Source: a virus
Virus record (IMG/VR): IMGVR_UViG_3300047658_000008
Span: 1 to 32,116 of that record
Strand: one strand, 5' to 3'
Length of the DNA stretch: 32,116 bases
Within the stretch, counting starts at the first letter, position 1; every line of letters starts with the position of its first letter. Position numbers and translations under genes: made by a program. Below are positions 3,690 through 30,446 of this stretch, piece after piece. Below the pieces are notes generated by a model. It was given only the letters and a program-made list of their open reading frames with translations. It did not search any database and was not told where the DNA came from.

Positions 3690-5039
3690 TTACCTCATTA
3701 GGCTAAAATCAGGTGCGAATGACTGGGTGTTGTCCTCGCGGTCTTGCGATTCGAGAGCGGCCATTACAGCGCCCATCGCTACCTGCATCTGCTCTCTGGT
3801 TTCTTCCCCTGAGATTCCGTATGCAATTCGCATCCCCTGCCACAAGCACATTTCAAAAATCACGTATGAAAGCTCATCCGGCCACGGGTAGACATCACCC
3901 GGCTTGCTCATTTTGGGAGCACGCTTCTGAATGCTGAGGCCAATTCCCCACGGGTATGTGCCGAGAGGCTCAGTCAAACGAAACTTGATGACGCCGTTGT
4001 TGTAATCTACGACCGGAGCGATTTCCAACTTATCCCCTGTCGTTGAGTATTCTTTCACTTTGCGATGCACCGCCTTCAGTGGGTTGACCGGCATGGGGAA
4101 CGCCTGACTGTTCAAGTCGTAAATATCCGCCGCTTGCAGCCAACTGAAGTTGTAAATTCCCGGAGCCCCACTCGGTGCGGCGAAGATGTAGCCTGTGTCG
4201 GCACCGGGTGTGACTGTCACGCCAACCGGAGTGGCGAAACTGATCGTGGTGGGTGTGACAAAGGTCAGGGTCACCGTGGTGCCATTGAGAGCGGCGTTGG
4301 TGACCACCGTGGAGAACGTCATCACATCGTTGATAGCCATGGTGTTGACCACGGAGACCGTCGTAAAGCTCCCTGAGAAGGAGACAGCGGTAATGGAGCC
4401 GTACTGCTCACCAGCGATGCCCTGAACCGTGAAGTTGTAGGGCGACTGAATGGCGACGAAGGGATAGCCGTTCGTCCACGCTGCCGTGGACAGGATGTTG
4501 TTATATGTGTAGACCGAGTTATACGCGGGGTTGGTAAGCCCCGACAAGTAAGCACTCACCCCGTTGGTGCTCTGGTTGGAGTAGGGGTGCGGGTCAAGGG
4601 TCTGCACACTGATGATTCCTGTCACCGGGTTGACGGATACGCTGGAGGTTCCACCATTGACCGGCAGATACGTGAAGTTGCCCATCACGGTGGGAGCCAA
4701 GTCGATACCCACGCCACCCGAGACCACGCTTGTGGTACCGCTATACGACTGTGGAAGCAGAACGAACACACTGGCACCGGCAAACTTGATGTCTTGGAAT
4801 CCGGGCTGCGTGACGAGAAAGTTGCCTTCACCCCAAGGAAACGGTGCAAACTCCCGTGTGTTGAACGTCCAAGGCATACGCTTGGTTAACAACATCTGCA
4901 TGACGCGGTTTGAAATACCAGACATCGGTTCGCCGGTCACACCGCCAATCGCAAAAAAGTTTTGCAATTTTGTGTGAAGGCGAAGCTGGTCGGCCATCTG
5001 GCCTTGCGTGGTGGTCATCGTGATAAGTGGATTTGCCAT
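3690..5039 (-). CDS. Head-tail adaptor / tail tubular A-like virion protein
   Basis: This 449-residue protein has a mixed N-terminal domain (residues ~1-90, with LHTKLQNFFAIGGVTGEP and a PFPWGEGNFLV segment). The middle, about 100-300, is rich in Ser/Thr/Val/Gly and includes an Ig-like module (ALNGTTVTLTF...PGADTGYI) like those in the neighbouring tail protein. The helical C-terminus (~375-449) contains WPDELSYVIFEMCLWQGMR. A split helical domain around a beta insertion, sitting next to the nozzle candidate, fits the T7 gp11-like adaptor group, but no diagnostic motif is visible. It is 51 bp upstream of the large tail gene and 11 bp downstream of the signal-peptide protein, so it is probably co-transcribed with both. 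It could also be a plain structural protein. Confidence 0.4.
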   Translation of the reverse strand: MANPLITMTTTQGQMADQLRLHTKLQNFFAIGGVTGEPMSGISNRVMQMLLTKRMPWTFNTREFAPFPWGEGNFLVTQPGFQDIKFAGASVFVLLPQSYSGTTSVVSGGVGIDLAPTVMGNFTYLPVNGGTSSVSVNPVTGIISVQTLDPHPYSNQSTNGVSAYLSGLTNPAYNSVYTYNNILSTAAWTNGYPFVAIQSPYNFTVQGIAGEQYGSITAVSFSGSFTTVSVVNTMAINDVMTFSTVVTNAALNGTTVTLTFVTPTTISFATPVGVTVTPGADTGYIFAAPSGAPGIYNFSWLQAADIYDLNSQAFPMPVNPLKAVHRKVKEYSTTGDKLEIAPVVDYNNGVIKFRLTEPLGTYPWGIGLSIQKRAPKMSKPGDVYPWPDELSYVIFEMCLWQGMRIAYGISGEETREQMQVAMGAVMAALESQDREDNTQSFAPDFSLMR

Positions 5040-10319: not shown

Positions 10320-10547
10320 TCAATTTATTCTGCGGTGGTGTTTGGGTTTGGGGTGAAAGGGTTGAGGACAGGGCAGCGCCGGTTGAATCGTCTGCGTCGG
10401 TTGCTGCTGCGTCGGTTGCTGCTGCGTCGGTTGCTGCTGCGTCGGTTGCTGCTGCGTCGGTTGCGTATTTGTAAACGAGATGAGTACAACCAAAACCAAG
10501 GCTACGATGCTAACGAACATGGCGATGCGAAGTAAGTTAGCTGACAT
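10320..10547 (-). CDS. Small membrane protein with a Gln/Pro repeat tail
   Basis: This 75-residue protein has a basic N-terminus and one membrane helix at about residues 7-25 (IAMFVSIVALVLVVLISF). Next comes a PTQQQ repeat encoded by a 15-bp tandem repeat, then a Pro/His/Lys-rich end (PFHPKPKHHRR). GGGGGAG lies about six bases before the ATG. An N-in, C-out single-pass topology with a proline-rich periplasmic tail recalls small spanin or holin accessory proteins, but no lipobox is present and no endolysin is nearby, so a lysis role is only a possibility. Confidence 0.5.
   Translation of the reverse strand: MSANLLRIAMFVSIVALVLVVLISFTNTQPTQQQPTQQQPTQQQPTQQQPTQTIQPALPCPQPFHPKPKHHRRIN
10394..10464. 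repeat. 15-bp tandem repeat, about 4.7 copies
   Basis: The plus-strand unit GCGTCGGTTGCTGCT is repeated with no visible change from 10394 to 10464. It lies in frame in the small membrane protein and encodes the PTQQQ repeats. Copy-number change would lengthen or shorten the linker without a frameshift. Confidence 0.95.
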
Positions 10548-12915: not shown

Positions 12916-13515
12916 TTAATCCTTCTGGTACCCGTTCAGGTACGTGATTGCTGCTTGAAGCGTTTCCGTGCTGTCGTAAAACAAACCAAGTCCCCTGTTA
13001 CAAGTTTCACAGAGAAGACCGCGAACGCACTTACCACAAGTCATTCGTGCATGGCTGTCTATCAAATCGGGGCAACAAGAGTGGTCATGGTCTATGGCCA
13101 ACCGCTTGCCACTTTCAGGACGCTTGCAGATGGCACAGACGCCGCCTTGTTTCTCAAGCATCTCCTGATACTTTTCGGTCGTAATACCGCGACGACCGGG
13201 ATGATACTTTGCGTAATACTCATCTCGTTTTTCTGGATGAGTAGCACGCCAACCTTGTTGCGTTTCAAGCTTGCGTGCCTTGCGTTCCGCTTCACTTTTC
13301 TTGGGAGCTAATGTTGCTTGTAATGCGGCTCCCGTTAATGTCATCCGGCCTTCGGCGTAATTCCTTTTTAGGGTTTCACTGGCCTTTTGATTTGCTTCAT
13401 CTGAAGGAGAATCTGTTCTCCTTCTGTGTCGTCCTTCAGCGTAGGCTTTCTTGAGAGATTCACTTACTCTACGTTTAGCTTCTTCTGAAGGTACATAGCC
13501 CTTAGAGTTACCCAT
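12916..13515 (-). CDS. HNH endonuclease (endonuclease VII type) with NUMOD-like N-terminus
   Basis: This 199-residue protein is a free-standing homing-type DNA endonuclease. The catalytic part has CAIC at 127-130, DHDH at 142-145 and CETCN at 169-173, the order seen in the endonuclease VII/HNH family: two CxxC pairs binding zinc around a His-bearing beta-beta-alpha core. Two repeats at the N-terminus (SEEAKRRVSESLKKAYAEGR at 10-29 and a similar KASETLKRNYAEGR) are NUMOD-like DNA-binding helices. It sits between the capsid gene and its follower without disturbing either, as mobile endonucleases do. Its ribosome binding site lies inside a strong hairpin (13522-13560). Confidence 0.9.
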   Translation of the reverse strand: MGNSKGYVPSEEAKRRVSESLKKAYAEGRHRRRTDSPSDEANQKASETLKRNYAEGRMTLTGAALQATLAPKKSEAERKARKLETQQGWRATHPEKRDEYYAKYHPGRRGITTEKYQEMLEKQGGVCAICKRPESGKRLAIDHDHSCCPDLIDSHARMTCGKCVRGLLCETCNRGLGLFYDSTETLQAAITYLNGYQKD

Positions 13516-21525: not shown

Positions 21526-22043
21526 GCAGTCTCCTGACAGTAGAGACAAGATGGATGAATCAGTCCTCTACCTACGTGCCAATACTTGTGCCCCCCTGCG
21601 TTGTGAATTCCCATTGACCCTTTTCCCTTCACCTTCATAAGGTGTGCTGCCAAGGCGGCTCTGTGGGATGCCGAATGGGGCACACCACGACGCTGCCTGC
21701 TCATCAGTTGCTTGGTCTCTGGAGAAAGAGGTAACCCCTTGCGGTCTCGGTTCATCTGCGCCAAGAGAGGGTGTTTGACTCCTGCCGGTCCGTCGCCTCC
21801 ATCAGTCAAATTACGAAGACAGCCGGTTCCTAAATCTTTCCTACCATAACGTTCGATAAGTTTTCGTTCTGCATCAAATGCTTCCGCCTCAGATTCCCAA
21901 TATCTGAACACAATGCGTGCCCTATCTTTTGGACGACGTAGTGCATGTGCAGCACTGGTAAACCCACGGCCACCCTTTCCTTTACCGACGTAATACGGTG
22001 TGCCGTCTTCACGGCACCACAGGTAAGTATAGAAGTAACTCAT
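21522..22043 (-). CDS. GIY-YIG homing-type endonuclease
   Basis: This 173-residue protein is a DNA endonuclease inserted between groEL and groES. The GIY-YIG domain covers residues ~1-95, with TYLWCREDGTPYYVGKGK as the GIY...YIG strands, an Arg-rich helix, a Glu-bearing helix (AERKLIERYG) and LTDGGDGPAG. Residues ~95-140 (RDRKGLPLSPETKQLMSRQR and RRGVPHSASHRAAL) are NUMOD3-like DNA-binding repeats. The stop and start overlaps with its neighbours are four bases each (ATGA), so the insertion kept translation of both chaperonin genes coupled. It is probably selfish rather than part of chaperonin function. Confidence 0.9.
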   Translation of the reverse strand: MSYFYTYLWCREDGTPYYVGKGKGGRGFTSAAHALRRPKDRARIVFRYWESEAEAFDAERKLIERYGRKDLGTGCLRNLTDGGDGPAGVKHPLLAQMNRDRKGLPLSPETKQLMSRQRRGVPHSASHRAALAAHLMKVKGKGSMGIHNAGGHKYWHVGRGLIHPSCLYCQETA

Positions 22044-23659
22044 CGTGAACCCCTCTGGATAGCCGCTTCTATTTCTTCCTTGGGTTCAACGTCGAGACAC
22101 TCAGTGAGAAGTAAAGTACCCGCCGTGGCTGTGGCGTTCTTGAGAGCCTCGATAACCACTTTTACTGGGTCTAAAATTCCACGCTCAATCAGGTTAGTGA
22201 ACTCATTGGCACGGGCGTCATAGCCCCAGTCATACTTAGGGTCAGGAAACATATAGAACGGATGTTCAATTATCTTGAGTAAAACCATCACAGGGTCTTC
22301 CCCGGCGTTCTTCGCGATCTGTTTCAAAGGCTCGACACATGCCTGTGAAACCACGGTCAGGCCGGGGTTTGAAGAGAATACCCGTGCTTGTGCTTTGAGG
22401 AGGGCGAGTCCCCCTCCGGGAACGCATCCGGACTGAATGGCACAACGGACAGCGCCAGCGGCGTCGTCAAAGCGGTCTTTGCGTTCACGCATCTCGGCAT
22501 TGGTGTTGCCGCCGACACGAATGAGAGCTATGCCGGTTGTGAGTTGTGCGAGGCGACGTTCAAGCCATGCCTTGTTCACGCCATCAGCCGTTTCCATCTT
22601 GGTTTTGATTTCGCCGACACGGCTGGCGATACTCTCCGGAGTGCCATAGCCGTCGATGACCGTGGTGGTGGAATCGGTGACCACGATGCGGCGAGTCTGT
22701 CCGAGGTGGGAGAGGTTGGCGGACTCCAGCTTGATACCGGAATCATCCATAATGGCCGTGCCACCTGTGACGGCGGCGATGTCACGAAGCAAGTCTTTAC
22801 GACGTTCCCCGTAGGCTCCGGACTTGACCACGACAATGGGTGCTTGAGCACGGATGCGGTTGACTACGAAACACGCCAGTCCGTCCTGCTCAATGTCCCC
22901 ACAGATGACCAGTAATGGCTTCCCTGTCTTGGATACCTGTGCCAACAAAGGCGCGATGCTCTTGGCGGTGCCGATGCGTCCCTCGTACAGGAGAACGAAG
23001 GCATCTTCGTATACCGCCTCGAAACGTTCGAGGTCATTGGCGAAGGAGGCAGAGAGAAACTCCCCGGAGATGAACTCTATGCCGTTGGTGATAGTAAGGT
23101 CGGTAAGTATAGTACCCGACTCCTCCACGGACACCGCACCTTCCACACCGACAAGGGCGAACGCCTCGCAGATGATGTCGGCCAAAGCTTGGTCGCCATT
23201 GGAGGCGATATACGCTATTGCTGAAGTCTCCTCGGGGGTAGTCACCGGGACGGCCATCAAAGTAAGTTGCTCCACAATGAGAGCGGCGGCTGAATCCATC
23301 TGGAGTTTCAATTCCCATGGACTGGTACCGGCTTCGATGAAGTTGACCCCGGCATGACACATGGCCTGTACCAACGTGGTTGCGGTGGTGGTGCCATCTC
23401 CAGTTGCTTGAACGCAGCGGTTTGCTGCTTCACGGGCTAAGTCGGAGCCGATTTGCATCCGGGGGTCTGACGGGTTTACCGAGTTCGCAACTGTCACGCC
23501 ATCTTTTGTGGTGATGGGCGGGAGTCCTAACAGCCGACGCCCGATAGCGACGTGACGACCTTTAGGCCCGAGCGTGACCTTCACCGCATCCGCCAAGTAA
23601 TCGACCCCGGCGAGGATGGAGTCACGTGCTTCGGTTCCGTAATAGAGATTCTTAGCCAC
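22040..23659 (-). CDS. groEL: GroEL chaperonin, phage-encoded
   Basis: This 539-residue group I chaperonin folds proteins inside a double ring capped by GroES. ATP-site and ring motifs are present: LGPKGR at 30-35, TKDGVTV with Asp 53, GDGTTTAT at 87-94, and RFDDA with GGG at 415-417 (equivalent to E. coli D52, D87 and D398). The apical domain (~190-370) keeps FLSASF, GKPLLVICGD and GERRKDLLRDIAAVTGG. The C-terminus lacks the usual GGM repeats and ends LDVEPKEEIEAAIQRGSR. The start is GTG after AAGG. It lies in the packaging operon with GroES. It is complete, so probably active, and probably serves virion proteins. Confidence 0.95.
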   Translation of the reverse strand: MAKNLYYGTEARDSILAGVDYLADAVKVTLGPKGRHVAIGRRLLGLPPITTKDGVTVANSVNPSDPRMQIGSDLAREAANRCVQATGDGTTTATTLVQAMCHAGVNFIEAGTSPWELKLQMDSAAALIVEQLTLMAVPVTTPEETSAIAYIASNGDQALADIICEAFALVGVEGAVSVEESGTILTDLTITNGIEFISGEFLSASFANDLERFEAVYEDAFVLLYEGRIGTAKSIAPLLAQVSKTGKPLLVICGDIEQDGLACFVVNRIRAQAPIVVVKSGAYGERRKDLLRDIAAVTGGTAIMDDSGIKLESANLSHLGQTRRIVVTDSTTTVIDGYGTPESIASRVGEIKTKMETADGVNKAWLERRLAQLTTGIALIRVGGNTNAEMRERKDRFDDAAGAVRCAIQSGCVPGGGLALLKAQARVFSSNPGLTVVSQACVEPLKQIAKNAGEDPVMVLLKIIEHPFYMFPDPKYDWGYDARANEFTNLIERGILDPVKVVIEALKNATATAGTLLLTECLDVEPKEEIEAAIQRGSR

Positions 23660-24163: not shown

Positions 24164-24412
24164 TTAGTTACTCCAAAATGAAAGCCACCAGACATAGAGC
24201 CTGTGGAGGATGGTTGGGGGTTGAGGGGGTGCCGGGGGTGCCGGATCGTGGGTGATCTTGAAAACTTCGCGGCCTTGGGAGTTGAAGATGAGTTGAACAA
24301 TCGAACCGTTCACCTTGCCGCCGATGATAAGAAAAGCTTCGCCGCCGCTAACCTCAGTAACGGTGAACCCTTCGGGAGGACAGTACGTTTGGTTGATGGA
24401 TTCGATTCTCAC
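24164..24412 (-). CDS. Small protein with a C-terminal aromatic tail
   Basis: This 82-residue protein starts at a GTG overlapping the stop of the upstream gene (GTGA). It has a hydrophobic beta-like middle (GEAFLIIGGKVNGSIVQLIF), a proline run (PAPPAPPQPP) and a hydrophobic Trp-rich end (LHRLYVWWLSFWSN). The end could be membrane-attached, but no complete membrane helix is certain. The function is unknown. Confidence 0.5.
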   Translation of the reverse strand: MRIESINQTYCPPEGFTVTEVSGGEAFLIIGGKVNGSIVQLIFNSQGREVFKITHDPAPPAPPQPPTILHRLYVWWLSFWSN

Positions 24413-24654
24413 GGCTTGACCTCGTACAGGGGCTGGCCGGGAACCTGAGAAGCCTCAGGCCAGACGGCGGAAGTTGGGGAGGGAAGATAGGAATTGAAGG
24501 GCAGCGCGTCGAGATACTCGCTGGAGGGGACTACCTTGGTGACACCCTTAGTCCAGTTATCGAGGTACTGTTGACGAGCCCCCTCGGGGGAGTTGCCCCA
24601 TGCGTAGGTGTACCGGGTTCCGTCCATAATCCAAATGACGTATGAGTTGGGCAT
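24409..24654 (-). CDS. First gene of the chaperonin-packaging operon
   Basis: From the ATG at 24654 (AGGAG five bases upstream) it encodes 81 residues: MPNSYVIWIMDGTRYTYAWG, then a loop with NSPEGARQQYLDNWTKGV and a Pro/Ser-rich end. A longer frame begins at 24741, but its extra codons lie inside structured element A, so the later start is preferred. The gene is the first in the operon after the control region. The function is unknown. Confidence 0.55.
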   Translation of the reverse strand: MPNSYVIWIMDGTRYTYAWGNSPEGARQQYLDNWTKGVTKVVPSSEYLDALPFNSYLPSPTSAVWPEASQVPGQPLYEVKP

Positions 24655-24670
24655 GTAACTCCTATGTATT

Positions 24671-24752
24671 GTCGGCGATTCTGTTTCAAGGATTGGAGAC
24701 ATGGAGGACTCCATCCGTCCGGAAGTCTCGTCCGGTACCATATCTCGCCGAC
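24671..24752 (-). ncRNA. Structured element A in the leader of the packaging operon
   Basis: On the minus strand GTCGGCGA pairs with TCGCCGAC as an outer stem. Inside are a CCGGA/TCCGG hairpin with GAGA in the loop, a second hairpin ATGGA/TCCAT, and the single-stranded blocks GATATGGT and CTTGAAACAGAA. The same blocks occur in element B (27117-27191) with changed but still pairing stem bases. It ends 16 bases before the ATG at 24654, and a GTATTAG motif stands seven bases upstream of the outer stem. It could be a riboswitch-like leader or a binding site; no known family is recognised. Confidence 0.5.
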
Positions 24753-24781
24753 TGTATGTCTAATACTGCGTAGTTGAGAAA

Positions 24782-24799
24782 TTAACGGTTATTAACAGT
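24782..24799 (+). promoter_or_regulatory. Tandem octamer site 3 (TTAACGGT-TTAACAGT)
   Basis: TTAACGGT and TTAACAGT are separated by two bases, with one change from the perfect octamer. The site is about 30 bases upstream of structured element A and about 17 bases upstream of the GTATTAG motif, where a -35 or activator site would lie for the operon. Confidence 0.45.
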
Positions 24800-24833
24800 T
24801 ATAGGTTTCGAATTAAATACAAAAATGTAAGTC

Positions 24834-24906
24834 GCCATGGCACAGCAGCCATGGCCGGTACTTGGGGGCTGAGACCCGACCCCTAGTTCAGAATAGGGTC
24901 TCTTTT
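24834..24906 (+). ncRNA. Possible small RNA: hairpin plus terminator in the gap
   Basis: GCCATGGC occurs twice (24834-24841, 24848-24855), so the copies pair as an eight-base-pair hairpin around ACAGCA. About 15 bases later GAGACCC and GGGTCTC (24871-24902) pair and are followed by TTTTATCC, a terminator shape on the plus strand. No coding frame of note is on this strand. A matching promoter is not clear (TTAACA at 24792 with a poor -10). Confidence 0.3.
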
Positions 24907-25222
24907 ATCCCTATTGAACTGCGATTAGTGAGACGCACCATACGCCTACAACCGACCACACACGGTCTCAGGCTGTGCTTCGGTGGGCTCTGTGAGGTTT
25001 CGGGGTGGGTCAGAACAACACCAAACATAGCTACAGCGTCGGGGCTGTGCGTGTAACGTGTTGATAACACAGGTGAATGCACGGGTATGGTGCAAAGTAG
25101 GGCACTCGATACCATGGATAGGCTGTTAACTTGTTGATTACTATGCATTTAGTACGCAGTGAGCGTTTCCCATGGTAGCTGGCGCGTTTTACGTGTCCAC
25201 TATTGCTCATCGCTATCGCGTT
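24907..25222. other. Gene-poor stretch
   Basis: No convincing gene is seen here. Frames on either strand lack good start sites or protein-like composition. A CGCGTTTTAC sequence occurs twice (near 25182 and 25217), and one degenerate TTAACAG-type site (GCTGTTAA at 25122-25129) is present. Control or replication signals may lie here. Confidence 0.4.
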
Positions 25223-25426
25223 TTACTTACGTTCCGGGCACACTGGCAGATGAACCCGCAGGGCAACCGCTCCAAATAGCTCTCCACAATACCGGCAAGG
25301 ACGCTGTACAGATGGCCGTCCCCCTACGTTGTCTCCACGGGCAGCACATCGCCTCCGGGCAACCTCCGCCCATAGCTCAGCGTCAGGAATGGTGCTCATA
25401 TCGAGTTTGGGCGTCCATTGGCTCAT
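25223..25426 (-). CDS. Small zinc-finger protein
   Basis: From the ATG at 25426 it has 67 residues, beginning MSQWTPKLDMSTIPDAELW; an internal ATG would give MSTIPDAELWAEVARRR. Residues ~45-65 hold CRYCGELFGAVALRVHLPVC, a C-x2-C...H...C zinc finger. Short proteins with an N-terminal PDAELW-type helix followed by such a finger are common in phages. It is probably a DNA- or RNA-binding accessory protein; the target is unknown. Confidence 0.5.
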   Translation of the reverse strand: MSQWTPKLDMSTIPDAELWAEVARRRCAARGDNVGGRPSVQRPCRYCGELFGAVALRVHLPVCPERK

Positions 25427-25568
25427 AGGTTTTATTATGCCGGAGTTAACGTACCCGGCTCCGAGTACCACCCCGGACGCTACCCCAACGGCGGAGGCCG
25501 AACAGGGGTAGAGAACTAGTTTAATCGGCTGGCCTGTCTCATCAGCAACGGGAGGCCATCTCCGCCAG

Positions 25569-25587
25569 ACGGGGCATCATGCCCCGT
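25569..25587. promoter_or_regulatory. Perfect palindrome ACGGGGCATCATGCCCCGT
   Basis: Nine-base arms pair around one central C, seven bases past the stop of the small zinc-finger gene at 25595. A short T-run does not follow on the minus strand. It could be a protein-binding dyad or a weak mRNA end. Confidence 0.5.
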
Positions 25588-25594
25588 TTCGACT

Positions 25595-25768
25595 TCACTC
25601 GTAAAAGTGCCCGGTCTGCCTCGCGTGTTCAGCGTGAGTATCGCAGTGGTACCAGAATGGTGCAGACCCTTGGTTCTGTCCGGTTGTGGCTGGTTGCTCA
25701 CACTGTCCGCACTTAATGCGTGAACTCTCGACTGGAGTCAGTTTGTAATCATTCTTGAACGTGGTCAT
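25595..25768 (-). CDS. 57-residue zinc-finger protein
   Basis: The ATG at 25768 overlaps the stop of the 364-residue gene as ATGA, so translation is coupled. The 57 residues begin MTTFKNDYKLTP and carry CGQCEQP at about 20-26 and YHCDTHAEHARQTGHFYE at 40-57. Three cysteines and up to four histidines could form a treble-clef or C2HC-type finger. It is too short for the usual length cutoff but has the coupling and motif expected of a real gene. The function is unknown. Confidence 0.7.
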   Translation of the reverse strand: MTTFKNDYKLTPVESSRIKCGQCEQPATTGQNQGSAPFWYHCDTHAEHARQTGHFYE

Positions 25769-26859
25769 AGCGCCCCCTCAAGTTCTGCGGACTCAGGGAC
25801 CAGTAACGCGGCCTCAATCCGTGCGATAGCTTCCCACGGTACGATGTGGCAACCCGCGTACACTGTGCCCTCAGGCGATACCCGTTCAATGCGATAGTGC
25901 CCCAAGTGGCAGGAATGCCCGTTAGTGTGCCATTCTTCACCACGAGCCATTACAGAGCGAACCAACGCAAGGCCCCGCCGTGCATGGTCTATAGGGAAGG
26001 CAGCACCACGAGAGGTGATGACTTCGCTATTCATGACTTTAAGAGCAGTGGGAACGTATTGCTGGTACTGATATGGGAGTGAACGCCGATTGTCTGTGAG
26101 CCATGCCTCTAGCTCTGGCGCGGCCTCAACCCTCATCCGTGCTTCCCTGCGTTGTGCTTCGACGATGGCTTCTTGACGGCGTTTTTCTTCTCGCTCACGG
26201 GTGGCCTTTGCATCCGCTGCTATCTTGCGACGTAATGCATCCAAGTCACCCGGTACGACTGGCACGTCTGTTTTCTTCAGGCGGATGCAAAAGAAGGCAG
26301 CATACGCTTTCAATTCGGCCTGTAGTGATTCAATCTCTGAGAGAAGGCAGCCACGTCTCCCCCGTGCCCGTGCAAGGTCAGGAATGCGGTTTTTGATGCG
26401 GTTTTGAAAGTCCTTCAAATTCGCTTCATGGTCAACAAAATCGAAGGGCTTGACCTGCTTACTTTCCCGCATCCATGGCCGTTCAGGATCATTGCCCGGT
26501 AGGGAGATGTAAGTCCTTCGTGCGACCTTTGGCTGGCTAACAGCGAACGTGGGAAGCCCCGCCGGGTGTCCGCCTTCATATTGCCGGGTCTCATAGTTGT
26601 AATCGCCATACCCCCGTTTGTACTGCGAGGGGAGAGCGGAGTGCATTTCGCTTTGGTGAGCCGATGTGGTAACGCTGTAAGTATCCGACCATGCAAGAAA
26701 AGCCTTCTCGCCTTTCTTATTCTCTACAAAGGAACCGATAACCTGTGAGTAGCTGTATAGGTTCGCCCCGTCAAAATGCATCGAACCTGAACGGCCAGAC
26801 TGTTGAGATTGACTTGCCCATACGTGGACTAGCTCTGAGTTAGTGAATACTGACTTCAT
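25765..26859 (-). CDS. Conserved phage protein of 364 residues
   Basis: The N-terminal ~60 residues (FTNSELVHVWASQSQQSGR, then NLYSYSQVIGSFVENK) and the C-terminal ~55 (EEWHTNGHSCHLGHYRIERV, YAGCHIVPWEAIARIE) are blocks known from many phages and plasmids. In between, residues ~170-250 form a charged, coiled-coil-like helix (TREREEKRRQEAIVEAQRR). The function of this family is not known; the HxxxH/GxCHxG segment suggests a metal or nucleotide site, but no catalysis is evident. It has its own promoter-like region at 26899-26929. Confidence 0.6.
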   Translation of the reverse strand: MKSVFTNSELVHVWASQSQQSGRSGSMHFDGANLYSYSQVIGSFVENKKGEKAFLAWSDTYSVTTSAHQSEMHSALPSQYKRGYGDYNYETRQYEGGHPAGLPTFAVSQPKVARRTYISLPGNDPERPWMRESKQVKPFDFVDHEANLKDFQNRIKNRIPDLARARGRRGCLLSEIESLQAELKAYAAFFCIRLKKTDVPVVPGDLDALRRKIAADAKATREREEKRRQEAIVEAQRREARMRVEAAPELEAWLTDNRRSLPYQYQQYVPTALKVMNSEVITSRGAAFPIDHARRGLALVRSVMARGEEWHTNGHSCHLGHYRIERVSPEGTVYAGCHIVPWEAIARIEAALLVPESAELEGAL

Positions 26860-26901
26860 TGTGTTTCCTCCGTGCTGGTTGGTGACCAGCTAAGAAACAC
26901 A
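26860..26901. promoter_or_regulatory. Bipartite dyad covering the leader of the 364-residue gene
   Basis: TGTGTTTC/GAAACACA (outer) and GCTGGT/ACCAGC (inner) pair symmetrically. GGAGGA, the ribosome binding site of the ATG at 26859, lies between the inner and outer stems. If transcription starts near 26892, as predicted, the outer upstream arm is not in the mRNA, so the outer pair would act in DNA, and only the inner hairpin in RNA. Confidence 0.6.
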
Positions 26902-26929
26902 ATAACACCAAGTCATGACTTTGTGTCAA
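26899..26929 (-). promoter_or_regulatory. Promoter with an operator-like palindrome
   Basis: On the minus strand a perfect -35 TTGACA (26924-26929) is followed 19 bases later by TATTGT (26899-26904) as a -10. Spacing is long for sigma-70, so a TTATTG at 18 bases is also possible. AAGTCATGACTT (26910-26921), a perfect palindrome, lies in the spacer, and TTGTG/CACAA (26921-26935) overlaps the -35. A repressor could bind here. Confidence 0.6.
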
Positions 26930-26959
26930 TCACAAAATATATTTTTATTTGCTGTCGAG

Positions 26960-27052
26960 TTACAGCCGGGTAAGCCCCTCTAGCAAAGCTCTGCAAGCCT
27001 GTAGGAACGTCCCGGCCCCGGATAACATCGAATCCCCTGTCCAAACCCCCAC
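26960..27052 (-). CDS. Doubtful 30-residue open frame
   Basis: A GTG at 27052 with AAGGGAA upstream opens a frame reading GVWTGDSMLSGAGTFLQACR and then ALLEGLTRL. The frame continues without stop into structured element B, so it may be chance. It is recorded because composition is protein-like and no other gene covers this 400-base gap. Confidence 0.2.
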   Translation of the reverse strand: MGVWTGDSMLSGAGTFLQACRALLEGLTRL

Positions 27053-27116
27053 GGGCTTCCCTTGGGGCTGTGTGGCGTCTACGCATACGCATCCATGTAC
27101 GCGCCTACGCGCCTGA

Positions 27117-27191
27117 GTCGGCGATTCTGTTTCAAGGACAACCGCAAAGATGTCGTCCGGGGTTCTCCCCCGGCACCATATCTCAACCGAC
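27117..27191 (-). ncRNA. Structured element B
   Basis: This is the second copy of the element at 24671-24752. It shares GAGATATGGT, CCGG-GAGA-CCGG, ACG and CTTGAAACAGAATCGCCGAC. Its inner hairpin is CCGGGG/CCCCGG instead of CCGGA/TCCGG, so pairing is kept while bases change. The second hairpin is GACA/TGTC. The outer stem is weaker here (GTCGG/CCGAC). It is about 85 bases past the end of the 27278 gene, and a GTATTAG motif stands five bases upstream of its 5-prime end. The distance between blocks differs from A by a number that is not a multiple of three. Confidence 0.5.
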
Positions 27192-27277
27192 TTTTGCTAA
27201 TACTCACTTTCTTCTTTAGCGCAACTTTCTTCTTTCCACACGGGCGGGTAGGTCCGGGCTTTTAAAAACGGGGCGGG

Positions 27278-28303
27278 TCAGGTACTTGAACTCACGGCGA
27301 AAGCCATCTCTTTCTTTACACCGGGACACCTGTGGCTACTTTCCTCAGACGCCAGCTTGGTTACGTCGGCGAATCCACACACGGTACAGACCCAATACGG
27401 GTTGTAGTTGAGTGAATCCGGTGTGTGTTGTTTCTCTATGTGTTCAACGAGGTCGAGTTCCTTCTCGGACTTGTTTCCATTAACCTTGTTCCAGTTTGTA
27501 CTCCAGTTACATCCATCCACGGGACATTCCACAGGGAAGCATTGTTCACCCAACTCGGGGTGATTCTTCCTTATGTGAATAACCATGAATGAACTGGAAC
27601 GGTGACTGAACTCACACAGGGGACAGTTGAAGTCCGGACGGGACTTCTTTTCACCAGACGGGATGAGACTCCCTTTACCAGACGGGACAAGAAGTTTTTG
27701 TTCTTCGGGCTTTGTCTCTCGGAGAGAGGGGGTAGTAGGAGGTTCGTTGCTCACTTGCTGGAGGGAAGCCGTAGGCTGACCGACGACCCTACTACATGCG
27801 ACAGGATGCGACGAGACACTACCCGACTTGACAATACCCGATAAGAACCCTTGTGTGTAGTTTTTGTAGTGTATAGATAGTAACTCCCCCCTTGTAGTTT
27901 CTACATGGGCATCGCCTAATTCCTCTGAAATCTCATTTGCCCATGTAGTTTCTACATGAGTAGTTGGGTATGTCATCTGAATCACCTTAACTTTGTGTGC
28001 CCCGTGTGTAGCTCTCGTGTACTTCGTGGCGGCTGTCCGTCCGGTGTCCGATTGGTATCCGTTTGCGTCCAACCATTTCCGGGCTTCCACAATCGTCTTG
28101 TTCGAAAGTCCGGTGAGTTCCATCATCGTTGTGATGGAGAGCCATGACTCTTCGTCATCGCTCTCGTTCATAAGTTGTGCCATGTAGACTTGCAGCCGAG
28201 CACCCTTGAGTTTAAGGATGCCCTTTCTGCTGCAATCGAGAAGCTTGAATCGCTTCTGGCCCTCCAACCATGTATATATTTGATTTATGATTTTATCGTT
28301 CAT
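27278..28303 (-). CDS. Winged-helix and triple zinc-finger DNA-binding protein, possible replication initiator
   Basis: This 341-residue protein has an N-terminal winged-helix region (about 20-110: LQVYMAQLMNESDDEESWLS, TTMMELTGLSNKTIVEARKW), the design of phage RepA/DnaD-like initiators. A low-complexity linker follows (~160-222). The C-terminus has three Cys/His fingers: C227-C230-H243-H248, C260-C265-H288-H293 and C306-C309-H324-C326, of which the first two look like C2H2 fingers. Two repeats of CATGTAG-like sequence lie inside the coding region. Initiators often carry their own origin within the gene, so this is the best origin candidate. No helicase or polymerase is seen nearby. Confidence 0.55.
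   Translation of the reverse strand: MNDKIINQIYTWLEGQKRFKLLDCSRKGILKLKGARLQVYMAQLMNESDDEESWLSITTMMELTGLSNKTIVEARKWLDANGYQSDTGRTAATKYTRATHGAHKVKVIQMTYPTTHVETTWANEISEELGDAHVETTRGELLSIHYKNYTQGFLSGIVKSGSVSSHPVACSRVVGQPTASLQQVSNEPPTTPSLRETKPEEQKLLVPSGKGSLIPSGEKKSRPDFNCPLCEFSHRSSSFMVIHIRKNHPELGEQCFPVECPVDGCNWSTNWNKVNGNKSEKELDLVEHIEKQHTPDSLNYNPYWVCTVCGFADVTKLASEESSHRCPGVKKEMAFAVSSST
27854..27960. repeat. Iteron-like repeats inside the initiator-like gene
   Basis: GTAGTTTCTACATG occurs twice (near 27894 and 27945), the second with a full CATGTAG-TTT-CTACATG dyad, and a related GTAGTTTTTGTAG occurs near 27856. In protein terms the two copies encode HVETT twice, so coding repetition is the alternative explanation. 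An origin role is only a possibility. Confidence 0.3.
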
Positions 28304-29788: not shown

Positions 29789-30382
29789 TTACAATAACTT
29801 TGCCCACCGCTGCTTTTTCTCGAATGTGACGGGAGTTATCTCATGCCCGTTTGGTCTGTTAGTCCGCTTTCCTTGTGGGGTTCCACCACACCCGGTTTTC
29901 TCCAATACCCACCCTGCTCCCTTGAGGCTTATTCCCGGCTCGGAATCTAAGATATAGGTTTGAATCTTCGCATATCCCATCGCTGCTGCGGCACGGGTGC
30001 AAGCGGCGTAAAGCATACTACAGACGTTATCCGTACCGTCGCTCACGAGTCGAGCTACCTCGATAGTCATCCCGTCGTCGAGGTGGCGGGAAGCCGGCCT
30101 CATACAGATTGCTGCTCCCACTAGCTTGCCTTCCTTGGAAGCCCCGATGGAAAACTTAGCAACACGTATGGGAGAATGGTGACGATGGAGCGTGGACACA
30201 AGCGCATTCGATTGCCATAAGTGGAGCGGTACCACTTTAAGCTTTCCAGCCTGTCTTATGGCTCGTGCGGCTTTTACTTTTTGCCGCTGGCGATATGCTC
30301 GTTGGGCGGCAGCATGGTCCTTGTGGATACGGGGACGCCCAACTTTGCGTTTGATGGGTGATTCTATGTTATCGTCACCCAT
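29789..30382 (-). CDS. XF1762-like protein with AT-hook
   Basis: From the ATG at 30382 the protein has 197 residues. The first 45 are basic (IKRKVGRPRIHKDHAAAQRA), including an AT-hook GRPR. The rest follows the phage XF1762 family: VAKFSIGASKEGKLVGAAIC, RPASRHLDDGMTIEVARLVS, SDGTDNVCSMLYAACTRA and SEPGISLKGAGW. This pattern looks like an acetyltransferase-type fold, but no acetyl-CoA motif is certain. DNA binding through the hook and an unknown activity are expected. The N-terminal hook is probably a separate addition. Confidence 0.7.
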   Translation of the reverse strand: MGDDNIESPIKRKVGRPRIHKDHAAAQRAYRQRQKVKAARAIRQAGKLKVVPLHLWQSNALVSTLHRHHSPIRVAKFSIGASKEGKLVGAAICMRPASRHLDDGMTIEVARLVSDGTDNVCSMLYAACTRAAAAMGYAKIQTYILDSEPGISLKGAGWVLEKTGCGGTPQGKRTNRPNGHEITPVTFEKKQRWAKLL

Positions 30383-30446
30383 CAAAGTATCATCCCTTCT
30401 GCCGTTCGGCGTTCGACCTGTAGATTGTTAATACTCACGTGACGAG

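Follow-up and report, generated by a model that had tools for sequence, protein, structure and literature searches.

Among the 32,116 nt of IMG/VR virus record IMGVR_UViG_3300047658_000008 analysed here (the window), two segments of the minus strand are copies of an element that is almost certainly a conserved RNA structure and apparently belongs to an RNA family undescribed so far. A closing helix (P1) and two arms (P2 and P3) meet in a three-way junction, with the consensus P1-(GAUA or NA)-UGGUR-P2(6 bp, GAGAN loop)-AC-P3-(N)UGAAACA-(GMA or none)-P1'. Five more copies were found in two phage records, four in G030 and one in G031. Since the fold is common to unrelated phages in which the letters differ and the pairing is preserved, it is taken to define a real RNA family. 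This supports, overall, the structured-RNA interpretation put forward in a preliminary description of this DNA; the function of the element remains unshown. The window copies are:

24671–24752, minus strand: copy A, 82 nt, 82 bits with model R3; the minimum-energy fold is a three-way junction
27117–27191, minus strand: copy B, 75 nt, 81 bits with model R3; the junction is at most 0.4 kcal/mol from the minimum-energy fold

The positions and common blocks first reported for the two copies were confirmed, as was the total difference of seven bases between them. They share 22 identical nt, the 3' block TCCTTGAAACAGAATCGCCGAC, and a 31-nt stretch including GAGATATGGT and the CCGG-GAGA-CCGG hairpin is 81% identical. 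The claim that both can fold into the same three-stem shape holds fully for copy A, where the element alone adopts the junction as its minimum-energy structure at −31.8 kcal/mol (z-score −2.8 with one extra flanking base included). In copy B it is only near-optimal (−26.4 vs −26.8 kcal/mol for the best fold), so that for B alone the common shape is permitted, not forced. Covariation of the stems, which had also been proposed from the pair, is weak in A and B by themselves: there is one two-sided change, matched by 246 of 500 shuffles. A wider search for homologues was therefore made, and only with these added does the signal become strong. The parts of the structure in copy A are as follows:

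24745–24752, minus strand: 5' strand of P1, GUCGGCGA, pairing with 24671–24678; two to four pair types per position over the seven copies
24671–24678, minus strand: 3' strand of P1, UCGCCGAC, pairing with 24745–24752
24717–24738, minus strand: P2 hairpin, GU-(A bulge)-CCGGAC-GAGAC-UUCCGG-AC; length constant in seven of seven copies, loop GAGAN, compensatory pairs
24690–24716, minus strand: P3 arm of variable length, with base GGAU/AUCC (P3 base aligned by hand)
24682–24689, minus strand: junction strand UUGAAA plus CA, the CA pairing with UG at 24739–24740; UGAAACA in seven of seven copies

Scans with a single block (3' or 5' alone) and with loose combined patterns gave only chance matches among the matches listed. 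A spaced pattern (GATATGGT, GAGA, GAAACAG) led to two loci with pairing arms and with letters unlike those of the window, L597:4430–4502 and L494:8134–8202, which score 35.3 and 25.8 bits, respectively, with a covariance model built from A and B only. When a stricter spaced pattern was run over the complete IMG/VR, 32 loci were returned; just these two keep P1 (8 bp) and P2 (6–7 bp), and the remaining 30 have at most seven pairs combined. Three further copies in the record of L597, designated 634, 635, and 642, were found by models; they have UGGUR, GAGAN, AC, and UGAAACA, and no GAUA loop. Covariance models place the copies of this record, and the locus of the G031 copy is given with them:

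G030 4430–4502, plus strand: copy 597, on a 230-kb jumbo-phage contig
G030 68647–68722, minus strand: a further copy
G030 about 75.95–76.03 kb, minus strand: copy 642
G030 78743–78845, plus strand: a further copy
L494 8134–8202: copy 494, the single copy in the 37-kb record G031

Directly behind P1', copies 635 and 642 have a similar hairpin (L635 1594–1640; L642 about 1396–1447), which suggests that a longer cassette was probably duplicated, with the two now in opposite orientations. A descriptor scan of 5.9 Mb of sequence returned true copies only, with no false positives, and missed copy B because of its P1 bulge. An early model that included the flanks (R1, seven pairs) was of little use. 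Two bacterial matches (L644, L645) and a coding-like one (L646) were rejected on inspection, the full core being missing. BLAST searches with copies A and B in phages, and with B in plasmids, yielded short chance matches or none, and the L597 copy had no match in phages. No credible copy was seen in 398 sampled bacterial genomes by model scan or in 386 by pattern scan; because only a few candidates in each genome are scored by the sample scan, absence from bacteria is weakly evidenced.

Across the copies the element is about 70–110 nt long. P1 has 7–14 bp and is followed by GAUA or by two bases of which the last is A; UG pairs with CA and GU with AC, with the R bulged. Up to three bases precede UGAAACA, and GAA, GCA, or nothing comes between it and P1'. 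What is invariant is the P2 arm (length, bulge, and loop) and the junction strand, while the sequences of P1 and P3 are free to vary, as is the length of P3. Over the five best-aligned copies, in an alignment that was fitted to the structure, 98.9% of cells pair vs 76.4% after shuffling, two-sided changes occur in 10 of 18 pairs, and none of 500 shuffles reaches any of five measures; in controls with slid partners the covariation signal collapses. An alignment of the seven copies made by hand gives a consistent picture, and in it the base of P3 pairs at all four positions in six copies and at three of the four in L597. Note that L494 and L597 were picked by core letters, so conservation of the core is partly built in; the pairing is not. 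A covariance search without further copies would have told against the preliminary description; the copies found lie instead in two unrelated phages, with P1, P2, and P3 kept through many two-sided changes.

The pairing also bears on whether this could be a feature of the DNA, either a small inverted-repeat transposable element or a packaging site. The ends are inverted repeats, and copies 635 and 642 resemble a cassette duplicated in opposite orientation. Counted by hand over the seven copies, however, the helices contain eight G-U pairs and no A-C pair, so that the conserved structure belongs to RNA of the window minus strand; a MITE or other DNA site is disfavoured by this count. The single-stranded core is moreover conserved on one strand, and copy B lacks a target-site duplication. 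A DNA feature is accordingly given very little credence.

Nor is a protein conserved, as had been concluded from the block spacing in the two window copies. Relative to the conserved ATG, GAAACA is in frame 0, 1, 2, 0, 2, 1, and 2 in A, B, 597, 494, 634, 635, and 642, and stop codons interrupt four of the seven (B, 634, 635, and 642); a 3' block found in all three frames, together with the stops, rules out a conserved protein. A leader peptide MVPGExPGR was considered and rejected, since its amino acids change where the base pairs are kept and its frames and stops are inconsistent. The earlier statement that the element matches no known riboswitch also stands, in that the Rfam 15 covariance models give no match over the window, G030, or G031 copies, either at gathering threshold or by E-value.

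A cmscan of the window, which found nothing over the elements, did identify one ribozyme:

25528–25594, minus strand: type II hammerhead ribozyme (score 42.7 bits; exceeds the Rfam threshold)

It sits in a stretch of ~1 kb without long genes, between the gene at 25765–26859 and copy A. The element itself might be a self-cleaving ribozyme of a new kind, trimming the transcripts of the phage: its junction is compact, with invariant unpaired nucleotides, it occurs in phages, and a hammerhead is present in the same window. Like the hammerhead it has three helices around a conserved core in a phage setting, but the CUGANGA/GAAA/UH core is absent and the junction strands are GAUAUGGU and UGAAACAGMA. 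There is no likeness to any Rfam ribozyme, the loop beside P1 is missing in three copies, and, with P1 starting at what is likely the 5' terminus, little would be left there to cut. Self-cleavage is thus considered improbable.

Several other features were recorded in the window:

27889–27958: two near-identical TGTAGTTTCTACATG palindromes, 51 nt apart within the gene at 27278–28303; possible operators
26905–26926: palindrome ACACCAAGTCATGACTTTGTGT just upstream of the gene at 25765–26859, near a TTGACA-like box; possible repressor site
29789–30385, minus strand: Mom-like DNA modification protein (phrog_1384, E 2e-29)
10392–10466: 15-nt tandem repeat CTGCGTCGGTTGCTG, about five copies

The surroundings of the two window copies, in terms of promoter-like motifs and genes, are as follows:

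24760–24766, minus strand: GTATTAG, −10-like, 7 nt upstream of copy A
27197–27203, minus strand: GTATTAG, −10-like, 5 nt upstream of copy B
24409–24654, minus strand: first gene behind copy A, 81 aa, with AGGAG at 24659–24663 and no Pfam or PHROG match; heads the GroEL/TerL/portal operon
22040–23659, minus strand: GroEL-like chaperonin of the operon led by copy A (phrog_5725, E 1.7e-118; Pfam Cpn60)
25765–26859, minus strand: gene behind copy B, beginning after 257 nt (phrog_7247, of unknown function)

GTATTAG is thus located 5–7 nt ahead of each copy, as originally noticed. The combination GTATTAG-N5-9-GTCGG has exactly two occurrences in the window, with 0.01 expected. The motif is also found ahead of the gene at 13515, where there is no element, as would be expected for a promoter motif. 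Copies 634, 635, and 642 have CGGTASGGT or TAGCAT (TANNNT-like) 6–7 nt upstream, so that −10-like motifs lie 5–8 nt upstream of five of the seven copies, recognizing that the motifs were chosen after the fact and that 5' ends are unmapped. This position suggests that transcripts probably begin with the element, which in most cases precedes an operon, the start sites being inferred from the motifs. In simple scans, promoter-like sites were not in excess, and strong terminators did not clearly cluster behind copy A. Elsewhere in G030, CGGTAGGGT occurs exactly 6 nt ahead of three leaderless-looking ATG starts (72431−, 73165−, and 116797+), and is likely a promoter motif serving leaderless mRNAs there. 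Leaderless mRNAs are common in actinobacteria, and the pattern hints at an actinobacterial host for this phage.

An element at the 5' terminus could simply stabilise phage mRNA by hiding the end in P1, which starts at, or a few nt from, the inferred transcription start. Stability alone does not need a fixed P2 length, a GAGAN loop, or UGAAACA, and this explanation is thought to have only a slim chance of being the right one.

What follows the element differs among copies. Copy A was correctly described as leading the chaperonin-packaging operon, being placed 16 nt before the first, RBS-bearing gene of the GroEL/TerL/portal strand. Behind copy B there are 257 nt free of genes and then a gene with promoter-like sequence of its own. 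Copy 634 is followed by an RBS and copy 635 by a hairpin, each with a run of same-strand ORFs beyond it; 494 has an RBS behind it, a stop codon 10 nt upstream, and no evident promoter; 597 has a terminator on either side, the second being strong, intrinsic, and within about 10 nt behind the element, with same-strand ORFs after that; and 642 has a hairpin behind it and is antisense to the flanking genes. In A, 494, and 634 the element ends 16–20 nt before an ATG with an RBS. The region around copy 597 (L597 4160–4550) is an array of short tandem units, each with an intrinsic terminator at its end; two units are near-identical and the element is the third. The array is possibly a small-RNA cluster.

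Some of these arrangements could reflect a stand-alone small noncoding RNA, consisting of element plus terminator and acting in trans, with certain copies fused to mRNAs. Copy 597 has just this composition, 642 has its own −10-like motif and is antisense to its neighbours, and no gene directly follows B; on the other hand, A, 494, and 634 lead straight into an RBS and gene. An RNA of this kind seems unlikely, if somewhat less so than the ribozyme or the stabiliser.

The latter three copies, and the terminator close behind 597, were counted in favour of a regulatory leader, in which the junction would bind either a small molecule or a protein of phage or host, and switch translation or termination of the next gene. 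Platform-like neighbours (RBS or terminator) are found at four copies, and the conserved nucleotides are in the junction and internal loops while the helices covary, as in an aptamer. Purine, TPP, and THF riboswitches are likewise three-way junctions with a closing P1, two arms, and conserved junction strands, but the new element has another core sequence, no Rfam match, and no association with metabolic genes. The downstream genes share no function, and none stands immediately behind B or 642. A common anti-Shine-Dalgarno scheme also fails: the pseudoknot drawn from copy A (CUCCAUGU against ACAUAGGAG) was not upheld across copies, and did not pass a shuffle and swap test. A ligand- or protein-operated leader remains a serious possibility, short of a probable one.

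The reading tentatively preferred here is that of a leader close to the promoter, acting in cis and engaging a trans factor, by analogy with the put RNAs of phage HK022. The put RNA suppresses termination and pausing via the beta' zinc-binding domain. By this analogy, the element would stand at the very 5' end of a phage transcript, with a −10-like motif a few bases upstream, and act in cis on that transcript, presenting the P2 loop and the junction to a trans-acting factor. The nascent leader would bind elongating RNA polymerase, directly or via a protein, and the polymerase would become resistant to pausing and termination, allowing a long phage operon to be transcribed. No experiment supports this, and antitermination is an inference. 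That P2 keeps its length and loop while P3 varies in sequence and length suggests a contact of P2 outside the RNA, and the same is inferred from a GAGAN loop without a conserved partner inside it.

HK022 has two put RNAs of ~70 nt, putL and putR, with putL just downstream of its promoter, and each consists of two adjacent stem-loops without a closing helix (PMC9378689). The likeness, which involves no sequence comparison, is that of a structured RNA of ~70 nt present twice in one phage, each time behind its own promoter (putative for the window copies), as an operon leader; it is the inferred transcript-start position, the two window copies at two promoter-like motifs, and one copy directly before a terminator that give the element its put-like appearance. 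The new element differs in having a closing P1, with two to four pair types per position, and in that antitermination is a property of put not shown for it. As put is a pair of stem-loops, the comparison concerns mechanism and not family membership. A second parallel is the boxB of lambda nut, whose pentaloop is GNRNA: both have a short stem of fixed length and a GNRA-like pentaloop, but boxB is a lone hairpin beside boxA that requires N protein and has no three-way junction.

Copy A at the head of GroEL-TerL-portal, and 634 and 635 ahead of runs of same-strand ORFs, were counted in favour of a put-like leader. Counted against it were the antisense position of 642, the lack of an evident promoter for 494, 10 nt after a stop codon, the absence of a clear terminator cluster behind A, and the narrow distribution. 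The element is known from three lineages only (the window phage, G030, and G031), and neither proteins nor DNA of the window match the other two records at E 1e-3; GC content is about 53, 66, and 59%, respectively. The window phage has TerL, portal, and GroEL, and no element copy was found in its TerL relatives; G016, the nearest (70% TerL identity, 65% identical GroEL), has no match to the element. In G016 the TerL gene (L206/L459 8176–10638) is in two parts about 650 bases apart, whose matches to the query overlap (residues 3–365 and 345–579), possibly owing to an intron, an intein, or a disruption.

Overall, the put-like reading has the largest share of confidence, which is still under one half, and a leader operated by a ligand or protein is nearly as likely. 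The chances are evenly balanced that this is an undescribed class of phage RNA at transcript starts, which through its P2-GAGAN arm and UGAAACA junction either reprograms the transcription machinery, as a second solution unrelated to put, or senses a ligand, as a phage-specific riboswitch class.

To our knowledge, few phage leader RNAs have a demonstrated role; put is the classic example of RNA polymerase being altered by an RNA without a dedicated protein. A compact RNA supported by covariation, at inferred transcript starts in three unrelated phages, one of them a jumbo phage with four copies, offers a concrete object for tests of antitermination, ligand sensing, and catalysis. For the window phage, it means that a specific RNA rather than a plain 5' UTR heads the late operon, and the element probably serves as a switch or handle where viral gene transcripts begin.
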